DNA of 64,000 bases from Lysinibacillus fusiformis (GTDB taxonomy: Bacteria; Bacillota; Bacilli; Bacillales_A; Planococcaceae), in contig NZ_CP070490.1 of NCBI RefSeq assembly GCF_016925635.1, forward strand, positions 1,054,001-1,118,000, read 5' to 3'. The notes beneath the pieces were generated by a model. It worked only from the letters and a program-made list of their open reading frames with translations, did not search any database and had not been told where the DNA came from. The translations under genes and the position numbers were made by a program. Positions 1,082 through 14,148 of the stretch are shown here, in pieces (position 1 is the first letter of the stretch; every line of letters starts with the position of its first letter).

Positions 1082-2005
1082 CTACGAAAGGAAATTTCTC
1101 TTTAATTCTTCTTGTTTGTTTAATATTTCGTCTTTAAGCTCATTTAAACTAATTAAAAGTGTTTTTGCTTCTTCGACATTTTCAAAATCCATATTATTTA
1201 TTAGAATTTGTTTATTATTTAACTTCATAATATGTGTTTTCACCCTACTCTTGTTTCTATATTTACTTTCTTCCCCATTAATTTCAAATAGTACCTCTGA
1301 TAGCTTCTTTTGTGGATCAAGAAGAAAATTAGACATTTGTTCATAACTTGTTAGTTCTATAAACGATTCATTTCTTAAATCATTAACACTAACCAACTTC
1401 ATTTCAATTTTACGCAACATTGTTTTTCTAATCATTTCAATCTTATATTGCATAACTAAATTGCTTTTTTCTTTTTGAAGTTTATCTAGCCATATAATTA
1501 AAGTATATAAAGCAGATAATGTATATGTACCATTGGCTAAATTTTCTTCTATTTCACTATGTGGATAATATTGAAAAACTTTAATTCTACTTGCAATTTG
1601 AGATTCACTAATGTTCATCTTGTGAGACAACTCTTTATATGAACATTTATCCCATACAATCCACATTTCATAAGTGTACTTCGCCCACTCATAAACACTC
1701 CAATCAACTTTTCCAGCTTGAGCAGAACCTAATCGATCAAGTTCTTCAGCATCAGATTTTGGTGCATGTACAACCAAAACAGGAATTTCTCTTATTCCTA
1801 ATTGTTGAGCTGCAAACCATCGCCGATGTCCAGAAAGAATAACATATTTTGATTCTTTTTTGTAACATGTAATTCCAGTTTCCCAACCCTTATCTTTAAT
1901 TATTCTCTGCATTTCTTCAGATTTTGTTGAGTAATTTTTTCGAGGATTCAAAGGATTGGGAAATACCTCATTTATATTTGTCCAAATTAATTTTATTCTT
2001 TCCAT
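1082..2005 (-). CDS. ParB/Srx-type N-domain protein, second of a tandem pair
   Basis: 307 aa. Residues about 8-105 look like a ParB N-terminal domain: the NPLNPRK segment near residue 17, then the nucleotide-binding-type box SGHRRWFAA near residue 59. Residues about 125-150 (YKELSHKMNISESQIASRI) look like a helix-turn-helix of the KorB/ParB type. The C-terminal third is charged and probably helical. The ATG follows a GGGGGA ribosome binding site. It is a paralogue of the gene immediately upstream, sharing the DxLNPRK, GxxxGITCYK, EAEELDRLGS and VDWSxYEWAK blocks. No ParA ATPase gene is nearby, so this is more likely a regulator or island-encoded DNA-binding protein than a chromosome partition protein. 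Base composition is clearly lower in GC than in the housekeeping genes. Confidence 0.8.
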   Translation of the reverse strand: MERIKLIWTNINEVFPNPLNPRKNYSTKSEEMQRIIKDKGWETGITCYKKESKYVILSGHRRWFAAQQLGIREIPVLVVHAPKSDAEELDRLGSAQAGKVDWSVYEWAKYTYEMWIVWDKCSYKELSHKMNISESQIASRIKVFQYYPHSEIEENLANGTYTLSALYTLIIWLDKLQKEKSNLVMQYKIEMIRKTMLRKIEMKLVSVNDLRNESFIELTSYEQMSNFLLDPQKKLSEVLFEINGEESKYRNKSRVKTHIMKLNNKQILINNMDFENVEEAKTLLISLNELKDEILNKQEELKRNFLS

Positions 2006-2119
2006 ATGTCCCCCACTATTTAATATATTTAATTATTAGATCACCTTTATTACTGACTGTATCCAATAATTTTTGTAATTCACCAATTAATTTATCTGCC
2101 TCATTCTTTGTACGACACT

Positions 2120-2926
2120 TTATTTTTTTATATCATTTGTTGTAGTATTTACTATTAAATTATTTTGTAAGAAATCATTATTTTTTGCTTGATTTTTAGA
2201 AATAATATCCAATTGACAATCTGATAATTTTTTTGTTATGTCTGTGAGGAAGTTTATTATTTCTTGAGAGTTATTGGAGTTAACCAATGATTTATCATTT
2301 ACTATTTGACTATTAAAACATTTATTTTCATATTTTTTAAGAAGCTGTTTTCTAATGAAATCTTCTCCCAAAGACTCTACCACGGTTTTATTGTATTTAT
2401 TCAACTTGTTTATCCATAAATTGATATAATACAACATAGTGATTGAATACATTCCATTCTCAAGCTTATCCTCCACTTCGATCCTAGGATAATATTGATA
2501 TACTCTTATACGGGCAGTAATTAGCCCTTGTGTAACCCCCAGCTTTTTCGATAATTCCGAATATGAAATTTCATTCAGGTTTTTCCATGTATCATACGTA
2601 AACTTTGCCCACTCATAAGGACTCCAATCTACTTGTCCTCCTTGTACAGAACCCAATCGATCTAACTCTTCAGCCTCATTTTTTGGTGGCTCTACAATAA
2701 ATATTGGGAGTTGTAATGCCCCCATAGTTTTTGCAGCATACCATCTTCTATGACCTGATAGTATTATGTAATATTCTCTGTTTTTATAACAAGTAATTCC
2801 CTCTTCCCAACCCTTTGAATTTATTATGTCTTGCATTTCATTAGACTTAATTGAATGATCTTTTCTTGGATTCAACGGATTTGGAAGTATTTTATCTATA
2901 TCGATCCATTCTAAACTTGCTTGCAA
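2120..2926 (-). CDS. ParB/Srx-type N-domain protein, first of a tandem pair; 3' end frameshifted
   Basis: 268 aa from a TTG start at 2926, chosen because AAGGAGG lies 7 nt upstream; the frame stays open further upstream but has no such site. It has the same domain order as its neighbour: a ParB N-domain with NPLNPRK and SGHRRWYAAK, then an HTH (YSELSKKLGVTQGLITARI). The frame ends at a TAA right after a run of seven A (T7 at 2123-2129 on the plus strand). With eight A the frame would continue to the TAG at 2016-2018, adding a helix-rich tail (NEADKLIGELQKLLDTV) that aligns with the C-terminus of the downstream paralogue. The present frame is therefore probably truncated by a 1-nt slip, or the A run allows slippage. 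Function is inferred from domains only. Confidence 0.75.
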   Translation of the reverse strand: MQASLEWIDIDKILPNPLNPRKDHSIKSNEMQDIINSKGWEEGITCYKNREYYIILSGHRRWYAAKTMGALQLPIFIVEPPKNEAEELDRLGSVQGGQVDWSPYEWAKFTYDTWKNLNEISYSELSKKLGVTQGLITARIRVYQYYPRIEVEDKLENGMYSITMLYYINLWINKLNKYNKTVVESLGEDFIRKQLLKKYENKCFNSQIVNDKSLVNSNNSQEIINFLTDITKKLSDCQLDIISKNQAKNNDFLQNNLIVNTTTNDIKK

Positions 2927-3025
2927 TTTTGCTCCTCCTTTTTTAATACTTCGATTTAATAGCACCATATATTTTCTTGTGAGTCTAACCACTCTAATAT
3001 AACACAACACTTTCCATATAAACCT

Positions 3026-3103
3026 ATTTATTCTTATTAATATAATAATTTCTTGTAAACCCAAATTTATTCTTATTATGATAAAAGTTTTCTTGAAGTT
3101 CGA
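3026..3103. repeat. Two 39-bp imperfect direct repeats upstream of the ParB-like pair
   Basis: Units begin at 3026 and 3065, each starting ATTTATTCTTATTA and continuing with a related TTTCTTG(T/A)A block. They lie about 100-180 bp upstream of the TTG start of the first ParB-like gene, a plausible place for an operator or ParB-type binding site. The rest of 2927-3348 is AT-rich with no gene I can support. Confidence 0.4.
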
Positions 3104-3348
3104 CCATATATCCATTATTTTTCTTAATATTCAGTTTTTTAAAAAAGCAAATTGTTCCAGACTTTCAATTTCTAATATTTTTTTAGTTAAAAAAAGGAGT
3201 AAAGAAAAGGAAATTTTATCCCCAAATCTATACTCCTATTCCTTATGTCTCCTACTAGAGTTTATATCCAGTAACTTCTTTTAAATATATTTTGCAAAAA
3301 TCATTAATTTAACTCCATCATACAAAGTGTATGGCAATATATGTGATG

Positions 3349-4668: not shown

Positions 4669-6639
4669 TTATTTCACAGTATTCAGCAAGCTATCCACGA
4701 CAAAGTCAAGCTGCTTATCTAGCGAAAAGATATCATTGTAGAAGAACAACCCAAAGCTCATATCGATAAGTCTGTCCTCCTTCACTGCCGGAATGTTATT
4801 CCAAATGCGGTTGTCTGATAAATCTTCCATTCCTTCAAAGGCAGAGCGAAAGACATAATCACCAGCATACTGAGTCAATACTTCGTAGGAAACATCCATG
4901 CTAGTAGCATCATTTTTGGAGGTTTCTATTTTCTGTTGCACAATTTCAGGTGCTTTCATTCCTAAATATTGATAAATAATCTGTGACCCACGTCCGTAAC
5001 CCATCCCCACCATTACAGCCATAGAACCTTTGTTGCTTTCCATAATTGTGACGGTTTTGTCCAAAATACCAGCTTGCTGCAACTTCTGCTTGCTTAGTTC
5101 CACCTTATTATAAAAATTGTCCAAAAGTTCTTTGGCCTGGTCTTCTTTACCAAATGCTTTCCCCAAGATTTCCATGCGTTCTTCTACAGGTAAATCATAT
5201 GGTATATAAAGAGTGGGGGCGATTTTATTAAGATTGTCGTAAATTTCATCTGTTGTAACAATAATGAGATCCGGATCAAGGGCAAGCACCGCTTCTGGGC
5301 TCGGTTGCCCATCTCCCAAAGTGGTGATACCATCCAATTCGCTAGCGATAGCCGCATCACCTTCTCCCACCAGAGTGGAGATACCAACAGGCTTTATTCC
5401 TAGAGCAAGCAGATCGCCCATCAAATACAAGACAACGACCCGCTGTGGGTTAACAGGCACTTCTACATCTCCTTTGAGCGTGTGTACAATTCTCGTTTGC
5501 GACGTCTCCTTGGTATCAGCATTTGATGTTGTCTGTGTTTGCGTCTCTGACGGGCTCGTCGTCGCTCCATTATTGACAGGCGCAGTCGATGAACACCCCG
5601 ATAACAACAACATCAAACTCATGGCTGCCGCCAATATTATTTCCTTATTTCTTATCTTTCCGAACATTAATAATTCCTCATTTCCCTTAGATTTGACTAA
5701 TTTATCTAGTACTCTCTCATTGTAATGAGGGTGATAATCATTATCAATATCATTAATGTCCATTTCAGTTATCATTTTTATCCGATACTCACTTGGCGTC
5801 ATATGATTATATTTTTTAAACATGCGGATTAAATTTAATCCGTCCACAAATCCACACCCAGCTGCGATTTCTTGAATAGTAGCATTTGTGTATTGCAAAT
5901 GCCGCTTTGCTGAATCCAGCCTTATCTCATTCAAGTACTCCTGAAGGCTTTTATGCTCGCGTTTTTTAAAAAGCCTAATTAACTGGCTCCTACTAATGGG
6001 TAGCATTTCAATAAGCTGTTGAATAGACACAGGTTCGCTATAGTGTTGCTCCAGATATTGCTTGGCTAAAGCCACATAATCGGGCTGGAAATAAAGAATA
6101 TCTCCCTTCTCCAACTCATTGTAAATCTCATAGACAATCTGATACAGAACAATCTTTGAATAAAATTGATTTAACACAGATTCCTGATCCCAATGGTCTT
6201 TCATATTCAAAAACTTCTCCTTAAAAAAAATGGGATTCCCTGGTGAGAATCCATACGTTTGTATAAACGGATTAATATGTTCTAACAAACGATAAATTTG
6301 TCTTTTGTAAAATGGAGGAGTTTCTGCTCTATACAGCACCATGTATGTCTCAAGACTTCTGCTAGTAGGATGAATCGATAATTCCGTTCCTTTCCCTCCA
6401 TGAAAAATACCAAAGCGTTCCGATTGATATAATGTGTGATCCAGTTTTATATTAGCCGTTCCACCACAGGTATATACCAACATACTAGTCGGCATCCTGT
6501 AACTTTGGATCGGCTTGTCTGGATGAAGCATTTTGTAACGAACATCTATTAATGAAATGGATGAGCGTGTCCATAATTGTACAGCCATATCGATCATTTC
6601 TTTTGTAAAATGATTAGTTGAATCCACATCTTCCAACAT
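4669..6639 (-). CDS. AraC-type regulator fused to iron-siderophore-binding lipoprotein (Btr-FeuA-like)
   Basis: 656 aa from the ATG at 6639, preceded by AAGGAG 9 nt upstream. Residues 1-185: effector/dimerisation part. Residues about 190-286: two AraC helix-turn-helix motifs, ending in the signature MTPSEYR. Residues 325-656: a complete siderophore-binding protein of the FeuA/FepB type, still with its signal peptide (MFGKIRNKEIILAAAMSLML), lipobox LLSGC with Cys349, and the binding fold starting RVVVLYLMGDLLALGI. AraC proteins with a binding-protein domain are known (Bacillus subtilis Btr), but those lack an internal lipobox. Here the linker contains a Fur-box promoter, and the internal ATG at 5667 has GAGG 8 nt upstream, so a free 332-aa lipoprotein can be made. 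The simplest reading is two neighbouring Fur-regulated genes joined by loss of a stop codon. No siderophore permease genes lie next to it. Confidence 0.85.
   Translation of the reverse strand: MLEDVDSTNHFTKEMIDMAVQLWTRSSISLIDVRYKMLHPDKPIQSYRMPTSMLVYTCGGTANIKLDHTLYQSERFGIFHGGKGTELSIHPTSRSLETYMVLYRAETPPFYKRQIYRLLEHINPFIQTYGFSPGNPIFFKEKFLNMKDHWDQESVLNQFYSKIVLYQIVYEIYNELEKGDILYFQPDYVALAKQYLEQHYSEPVSIQQLIEMLPISRSQLIRLFKKREHKSLQEYLNEIRLDSAKRHLQYTNATIQEIAAGCGFVDGLNLIRMFKKYNHMTPSEYRIKMITEMDINDIDNDYHPHYNERVLDKLVKSKGNEELLMFGKIRNKEIILAAAMSLMLLLSGCSSTAPVNNGATTSPSETQTQTTSNADTKETSQTRIVHTLKGDVEVPVNPQRVVVLYLMGDLLALGIKPVGISTLVGEGDAAIASELDGITTLGDGQPSPEAVLALDPDLIIVTTDEIYDNLNKIAPTLYIPYDLPVEERMEILGKAFGKEDQAKELLDNFYNKVELSKQKLQQAGILDKTVTIMESNKGSMAVMVGMGYGRGSQIIYQYLGMKAPEIVQQKIETSKNDATSMDVSYEVLTQYAGDYVFRSAFEGMEDLSDNRIWNNIPAVKEDRLIDMSFGLFFYNDIFSLDKQLDFVVDSLLNTVK
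5719..5747 (-). promoter_or_regulatory. Internal promoter with Fur box inside the fusion gene
   Basis: The minus strand reads TTGATA, 17 nt, TACAAT (sigma-A type; plus coordinates 5742-5747 and 5719-5724). The -35 overlaps a perfect 7-1-7 Fur box TGATAATCATTATCA at 5732-5746. Transcription would start near 5712, about 45 nt before the internal ATG at 5667. It encodes the linker residues of the fused protein. Confidence 0.8.
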
Positions 6640-6673
6640 ATATCTCGACTCCTTCAATCCACATCATATTTGT

Positions 6674-6702
6674 ATGGTAATATAAATGATAATGATTATC
6701 AA
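6674..6702 (-). promoter_or_regulatory. Fur-controlled promoter of the AraC fusion gene
   Basis: A perfect 7-1-7 Fur box TGATAATGATTATCA lies at 6687-6701 and overlaps a -35 TTGATA (plus 6697-6702), with TACCAT 17 nt on (plus 6674-6679). The layout is the same as in the internal promoter at 5719-5747. Transcription would start near 6667, just ahead of the AAGGAG used by the ATG at 6639. Confidence 0.8.
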
Positions 6703-13228: not shown

Positions 13229-14059
13229 TCAAGTAATATACGCACATTTGCCAAACATTTTTCTAATTTCATTCACAATCTTACTTCTAAAGCTTCTTTT
13301 ATGGGATTTAGCCAGTTTTATTCTAGTGCTGGAAATTTTGTTAAGAGGATTTTGAGCGGGGTCCTTACCTTTTGGAGCGCTTTTCGCTTCTTTTGGAGCG
13401 GTATCCTTACCTTGGAGCGCTTTTCACTTCTTATGGAGCGGCTTCCTTATCTTTTTGATCACTTTTCACTTCTTTTGGAGCGACTTCCTCATCTTTTTGA
13501 TCACTTTTCACTTCCTTTGGAGCGGCTCCCTCATCTTTTTGATCACTTTTCACTTCTTTTGAAGCGGCTTCCTTACCTTTTTGATCACTTTTCACATCAT
13601 TTGGAGCGGCTTCCTTACCTTTTTGATCACTTTTCACTTCATTTGGAGCGGCTTCCTCATCTTTTTGATCACTTTTCACATCATTTGAAGCGGCTTCCTT
13701 ATCTTTTTGATCACTCTTCACTTCCTTTGGAGCGGCTTCCTTATCTTTTTGATCACTTTTCACTTCATTTGGAGCGGCTTCCTTATCTTTTTGATCACTT
13801 TTCACTTCATTTGGAGCGGCTTCCTTATCTTTTTGATCACTTTTCACTTCTTTTGGAGCGGCTTCCTCACTTTTATGAGCGCTTCAATCGACTTCTTGAG
13901 CGGCTTCCTCACTTTTATGAGCGCTTCAATCAACTTCTTGAGCGGCTTCCTCACTTTTATGAGCGCTTCAATCAACTTCTTGAGCGGCTTCCTCACTTTT
14001 ATGAGCGCTTCAATCGACTTCCCTAGAGGAGTCCTCACCTTTTGGAGTGTTCTAGACAT
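13229..14059 (-). pseudogene. Repeat-protein gene, probably broken
   Basis: On the minus strand array A encodes a 14-aa hydrophilic repeat (KSDQKDKEAAPNEV), and array B in one frame encodes the related KSEEAAQEVD-type repeat but with a TGA in every unit. A nonsense change at about 13430 and a 2-nt loss near 13400 break the frame before a coding-like basic C-terminus (NKISSTRIKLAKSHKRSFRS, then IVNEIRKMFGKCAYIT and TGA at 13229). The T7 terminator follows it 12 nt later. This suggests an originally disordered, charged repeat protein with a basic tail. A 241-aa plus-strand frame (13301-14026, 14-aa repeat LPYLFDHFSLHLER) is uninterrupted but has no ribosome binding site. Coding strand is uncertain. 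Confidence 0.35.
13340..14045. repeat. 42-bp minisatellite, two subfamilies
   Basis: Array A has ten units whose TGATCAC core recurs every 42 bp from 13456 to 13834; a typical unit is GAGCGGCTTCCTTATCTTTT plus TGATCACTTTTCACTTCATTTG. Array B has four nearly identical 42-bp units with TATGAGCGCTTC from about 13874 to 14000. One or two degenerate units flank each end. Units within B are almost perfect copies, which indicates recent amplification. Because 42 is divisible by three, long open frames appear in several frames on both strands; this alone does not prove coding. Confidence 0.95.
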
Positions 14060-14114
14060 CCTTTCGAGTGAAGTACACCAACTTCAAGCAACCAATCAAA
14101 TAGAAATACAAAAT

Positions 14115-14148
14115 AAAGCTCATCCTCAATAAAATCGAATGAGCTTTT
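14115..14148 (-). terminator. Terminator of dagK
   Basis: A 9-bp stem AAAGCTCAT / ATGAGCTTT with a T-rich tail (TTTATTTTG) on the minus strand, 16 nt after the dagK stop. It can form on either strand. Confidence 0.75.

Follow-up and report, generated by a model that had tools for sequence, protein, structure and literature searches.

CadC and ToxR are one-component regulators tethered to the membrane, and cheA and clpA owe a short second product to in-frame internal start codons. Closer to the gene that concerns us here are the Btr-like fusions, which we take, from the Bacillus subtilis literature, to lack a signal peptide and to sense in the cytosol. In Bacillus pumilus, ybbB is listed as coding for an AraC regulator with a putative FeuA-like domain and as lying upstream of feuA (PMC3896406). 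Here we analyse a stretch of 64,000 nucleotides (nt) of Lysinibacillus fusiformis (contig NZ_CP070490.1, positions 1,054,001 to 1,118,000; hereafter the window), in which a stop-free frame of 656 amino acids (aa) runs from an AraC regulator through a signal peptide and lipobox into a siderophore-binding protein (4669..6639, on the complementary strand, as are all features of this gene). We consider it quite likely that this is a nested gene, giving a full-length regulator and, from a Fur-repressed promoter inside the frame, a separate lipoprotein.

Results

The original prediction had seen in this frame an AraC regulator joined to a complete lipoprotein, and Pfam domains together with the signal peptide and lipobox bear this out. 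An N-terminal part is followed by the AraC-type helix-turn-helix (residues 196-286, 5782..6054; HTH_AraC/HTH_18), a linker, the lipoprotein signal peptide and lipobox (residues 325-349, 5593..5667, from M325 to LSGC, with Cys349 at 5595-5593), and a FhuD-like Peripla_BP_2 siderophore-binding domain (residues 407-627, 4759..5421). Peripla_BP_2 and lipobox together mark a siderophore-binding lipoprotein of the FhuD/FeuA type, which may bind a ferric siderophore and serve a permease. The label first given to it, FeuA-like, needs correcting: among solved structures a FhuD-type hydroxamate-binding protein is nearer (3hxp, E 1.5e-36) than 2why and 2phz, listed as iron-uptake system-binding protein and presumably FeuA (E 4.9e-10 and 2.9e-10). 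With Btr/YbbB of Bacillus (NF049932) the gene shares the succession of HTH_18 and Peripla_BP_2 in one protein, an iron/siderophore context and nearby Fur boxes; it differs in its score, 71.1 bits against an equivalog cut-off of 900 (best stretch, residues 145-288), and in having at residues 325-349 the export signal that Btr presumably does without.

The joint between the two halves contains what looks like a complete promoter. A -35 hexamer TTGATA (5742..5747), recognised from its sequence and from synonymous constraint across the family, overlaps a perfect Fur box, TGATAATGATTATCA (5732..5746), translated as (I)DNDY(H); a -10 hexamer TACAAT follows at 17 nt (5719..5724), then a Shine-Dalgarno GAGG (5676..5679) 8 nt ahead of the ATG of Met325 (5665..5667). 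Ahead of the whole gene the layout is repeated, with a perfect Fur box (6687..6701), TTGATA (6702-6697), a 17-nt spacer, TACCAT (6679-6674) and an AAGGAG ribosome site (6649..6654) 9 nt ahead of the ATG at 6639. In both places the box overlaps the -35/-10 region, as in a Fur-regulated promoter, and the elements named in the original prediction lie where it had put them. The window between 4400 and 7400 gave no Rfam match at gathering scores. Linker RNA is slightly more stable than synonymous shuffles (mean z -0.72, standard error of the mean 0.20, 43 members), an excess that a palindrome could give.

The host genome (5.01 Mb) has 14 perfect Fur boxes and 47 places with at most one mismatch, against 5 for a reversed-pattern control. 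Seven of these 47 fall inside the linkers of nine long fusions of the same kind (L001-L008, L012), and Fur boxes occur in the fusion linkers beyond chance. The Btr-like fusions differ in this respect, as had been predicted: in the ten that we read in the host genome, which may hold more (395-564 aa as read, two cut by the end of the locus), there is no Fur box with up to two mismatches between the helix-turn-helix and the binding domain. Behind three of the ten come a Fur box and a lipoprotein gene in a frame of its own, and the nested gene looks like this layout folded into a single frame.

We read 117 distinct long fusions from five families of the class, chosen as frames of at least 540 aa with a blastp E of 1e-40 or better. 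A lipobox is recognised by pattern in 112, and in these the internal box has 0, 1, 2, 3 and 5 mismatches in 42, 38, 25, 6 and 1 members, so that 105/112 have two or fewer. The 111 boxes with 0-3 mismatches lie 100-157 nt ahead of the lipobox cysteine, all in one frame, and past residue 60 no place in the frame matches Fur better than the linker, which is alone at the top in 107 of the 112 and tied in the other 5. The base profile of 43 non-redundant members shows (A/T)TGATA at -7 to -2, the box at 0-14, TATAA at 16-20 and then a G-rich ribosome site; in the clade of the window gene the hexamers are shifted by six bases, with TTGATA at -1 and TACAAT at +22. Outside the search pattern, L116 has an LNAC lipobox variant and a box with 3 mismatches. 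As separate observations, the linkers of L082 and L083 have lost the signal peptide, giving a Btr-like soluble form in which a 2-mismatch box persists, and in L038 a stop codon shortens the binding domain near the C-terminus.

A box that is also translated could be kept for its protein, for instance as an iron-binding D-N-H-Y-Q-Y peptide of which the Fur box would be a codon by-product. The peptide does recur, and D, N, H and Y have codons that readily approach the box, synonymous shuffles reaching it with about 2.5 mismatches. Yet the DNA keeps its resemblance to the box through residue changes (Y to S or F, N to I, T or D, H to D, Y, G or R). Over 44 non-redundant members, the mean number of mismatches is 0.86 against 2.50 expected from synonymous shuffles searched for their best box exactly as the real sequences were (Z -11). 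Where residues are unchanged, the same codon is used in 317/321 cases (99%) in the -35 and box, in 513/572 (90%) in the linker upstream and in 314/351 (89%) from the box to about the internal start, compared with 6182/8477 (73%) in the AraC body, 633/863 (73%) in the signal peptide and 6946/9693 (72%) in the binding domain (41 independent pairs, no box filter; 40 box-filtered pairs agree). Of the 17 strongest synonymous-codon deviations over 649 alignment columns, 16 map to the linker or its edges, where they form three clusters, one at an upstream element, one at the -35 and box, and one at the ribosome site with the first codons past the start. The median synonymous divergence (dS) is 0.17 in the linker against 0.43 and 0.44 in the AraC half and the binding domain, with similar nonsynonymous divergence (dN; 0.062, 0.057 and 0.044), in a set in which the pair L001-L021 entered twice, L001-L022 was added and pairs with undefined dS were dropped (39/42 kept for the AraC half, 37 for the binding domain). 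Because dS falls in the linker while dN does not, and because codons are kept, a protein motif alone is insufficient. The comparison shows selection on the linker at the level of the DNA. Constraint by the protein alone, which we regard as very improbable, was rejected on the shuffle test, the residue swaps and the codon retention.

Some observations limit, or weigh against, the reading of a conserved internal promoter. In 43/43 members the codon ahead of the box ends in T (22.8 expected, z 6.8), whichever of nine residues (I, N, G, Y, S, D, T, A, H) it specifies, but placing the box by best match favours consensus bases in this count and in the codon-column profile, a bias allowed for in the shuffle test and avoided in the 41-pair comparison by dropping the box filter. 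Promoter and Shine-Dalgarno scores exceed those of synonymous shuffles by less than the box does. One member, L064, has no box, six of the 112 have only 3-mismatch boxes (L033, L041, L065, L074, L106, L112), and L042, L082, L083 and L108 are without a usable lipobox or signal peptide.

Does the internal start yield a product of its own? A Shine-Dalgarno match of at least 4 precedes 38/44 internal starts, against 121/603 (20%) of the other in-frame ATGs of the same genes, and the commonest distance from box to ATG is 25 nt; judged by sequence, the internal start carries the marks of a genuine gene start. The AraC half has a median dN/dS (omega) of 0.14 and the binding domain one of 0.11, and by this comparison the AraC half is under strong selection as protein and the frame is held open through the joint. 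L081, which has the full set of elements, is close on the AraC-half tree to the sisters L082 and L083, from which the signal peptide has disappeared; in L042 and L108 it is the lipobox cysteine that has been lost. As all four nevertheless keep the fused frame, the full-length protein seems useful in itself. The comparative support for two products from one frame is strong, and a free lipoprotein made beside the fusion from an internal Fur-controlled promoter, as first proposed, is probably what box conservation, codon constraint and ribosome sites reflect. A single full-length product could also be cut by signal peptidase II at Cys349 into a membrane-tailed regulator and a lipoprotein, with the internal Fur box acting as a roadblock to elongation when iron is plentiful. 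The lipobox of 112/117 members would suit this, one cut would yield both proteins, and a Fur site within a gene body could block polymerase. We nevertheless hold it to be improbable, as it leaves unexplained the ribosome sites (38/44 against 20%), the -35/-10 pattern with its 17-nt spacer, and the return of codon constraint to background about nine codons past the internal start, if not exactly at the start.

The original prediction saw here a recent fusion by stop loss, and a related possibility is an assembly error in the host genome, the internal promoter being a relic of two genes. Regulator – Fur box – lipoprotein pairs made of separate genes do occur in the host genome (boxes at 1381701, 2044921 and 4157524). 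Against this stand the 117 distinct long fusions, nine of them in the host genome (where seven more full-length copies at 30-42% identity accompany a shorter one, L012, of 606 aa), and the fused relatives with boxes at about 91% identity in other genomes (L021, L022, L142); the closest named relative is in Lysinibacillus sp. ZYM-1 (91% identity). As the 117 frames were preselected by length, the statement that the regulator is always fused rests on a search of 32 genomes of the genus with the AraC half as sole query, all of whose candidates were scored: 66/66 matches with an E below 1e-30 belong to frames of 602-731 aa. A further 17 weaker matches, in frames of 166-551 aa (two with internal stops), would by their length be stand-alone or Btr-like regulators. 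Recent fusion and assembly error were thus rejected by comparison with fused homologues, and we give them next to no credence. The prediction had also named, as what would speak against it, homologues uniformly fused and devoid of a conserved internal box; fused they are, and the box is conserved.

In the searches that supplied the 117 fusions, matches at E 1e-50 or 1e-60 occur in at least 14 of 41 relatives, at least 15 of 59 genomes from another family, at least 15 of 151 of the class and at least 3 of 249 across the phylum (the best 29, 20, 8 and 4 candidates, respectively, being scored per genome). The host genome is in the first and third sets and is one of the three in the last; the relatives, family and class sets overlap, and all counts of fusion-bearing genomes are lower bounds. 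Two matches (G209:C3:80199 and G078:C1:1473447) are outside the sequences read, and the fused genes of G226-G232 were counted only. This distribution marks the regulator-lipoprotein fusion as widespread and of long standing. In a tree from a quick search, with long branches for L006 and L012, a single branch (SH-aLRT 88) sets the AraC halves of 46 non-redundant fusions apart from the other regulators, of which the tree has only 7, all of the host genome; three of these come from the ten Btr-like genes, and one 'unfused' row is a Btr-like gene cut by the locus. The binding domains of the same 46 are intermixed with those of stand-alone lipoproteins and Btr-like proteins, with 9 label changes, at least 5 of them forced by starred branches. 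Grouped AraC halves and mixed binding domains point to exchange of the domain that follows the signal peptide, or to lipoproteins that have separated from the fusion. A 24-kb cluster of the host genome (2026364-2050266; L132, L133) holds four nested fusions, several Btr-like regulators, separate lipoproteins and many Fur boxes.

About half of the non-redundant members, the clade of the window gene not among them, have a TCCATTG site that is repeated 22 nt upstream, ahead of the internal promoter; the L063 type is an example. This direct repeat is plausibly the operator of the AraC half. Scored leave-one-out, it exceeds 8 bits in 81% of 43 internal linkers, a figure that homology alone inflates, for which reason we rely on the synonymous-codon columns and on the spacing of the repeat. 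The upstream promoters do not show it, with 1/46 above 8 bits (coding controls, 4% of 92), and it failed as a target finder in the host genome, where allowing up to 3 mismatches gave 13 matches and the reversed control 8.

Beside the window gene we examined one Dus gene and two adjoining ParB_N-domain genes, the latter at 1082-3115 on the same strand; the context of the paralogue L006 is a downstream ATP-binding cassette (ABC) exporter-type gene, an ABC ATPase and a FecCD permease. Elsewhere in the window (13301-14132), tandem peptide repeats are open on both strands, KSDQKDKEAAP-like on the complementary and LERLPYLFDHFS-like on the forward strand.

Discussion

We propose that the whole frame encodes an AraC-type regulator joined to a siderophore-binding lipoprotein, and that the joint doubles as a Fur-repressed promoter with the ribosome site and start codon for the lipoprotein alone. 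Iron limitation would take Fur off both operators; the upstream promoter would then give the full-length regulator, and the internal promoter, if active, a free lipoprotein feeding an uptake transporter. As the signal peptide is intact, the full-length product is read as spanning the membrane, presumably with a cytosolic AraC half and an external binding domain; the regulator might then carry its own siderophore sensor, as the original prediction supposed. Alternatively, both products could be made and the full-length form remain cytosolic, where its binding domain would detect siderophore after import, on the pattern proposed for Btr. The four members that keep a fused frame without a usable signal peptide or lipobox (L082, L083, L042, L108) would fit such a form, as would the Btr-like fusions, which presumably sense in the cytosol without a signal peptide. 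An intact hydrophobic stretch after positive charges normally inserts into the membrane, and 112/117 members keep theirs along with the lipobox, which counts against a cytosolic regulator and leaves it, to our mind, a minority possibility.

In members with the 22-nt direct repeat, the AraC half might bind it upstream of the internal promoter, and in the presence of its siderophore the regulator would then turn on the 3' half of its own gene. It is conceivable, if rather doubtful, that this makes a self-contained circuit, in which the AraC half of the membrane-spanning fusion binds the repeat in its own gene and, once the outside domain is loaded with siderophore, switches on the linker promoter and mass-produces that domain as a free uptake lipoprotein. 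If this were true, an exchangeable binding domain would let the module be re-tuned to new siderophores. An interdomain linker of about 145 nt that doubles as a regulated promoter, kept in 105/112 members, would offer a clean natural instance in which the same stretch works both as protein and as operator, and it makes directly testable how a regulator that brings its own transport-protein domain matches sensing to uptake. A second gene stays hidden when the locus is annotated as one fused protein.

The titles and opening lines of abstracts that our literature search returned describe no fusion with a nested promoter. With the FhuD/FeuA-type lipoproteins of Gram-positive ABC importers the 3' half shares signal peptide, lipobox, Peripla_BP_2 and a Fur box before the start, but here its promoter and start codon are embedded in another frame, with which they are in phase. 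If the proposed topology is right, the full-length protein would resemble CadC and ToxR in having a cytosolic DNA-binding half, one membrane stretch and an outside domain; it would differ from them in its AraC-type helix-turn-helix, in its cleavable lipoprotein signal and in the second product from an internal promoter. Like cheA and clpA, finally, the gene would draw two overlapping products from one frame, whereas here the joint appears to hold a complete regulated transcription unit.
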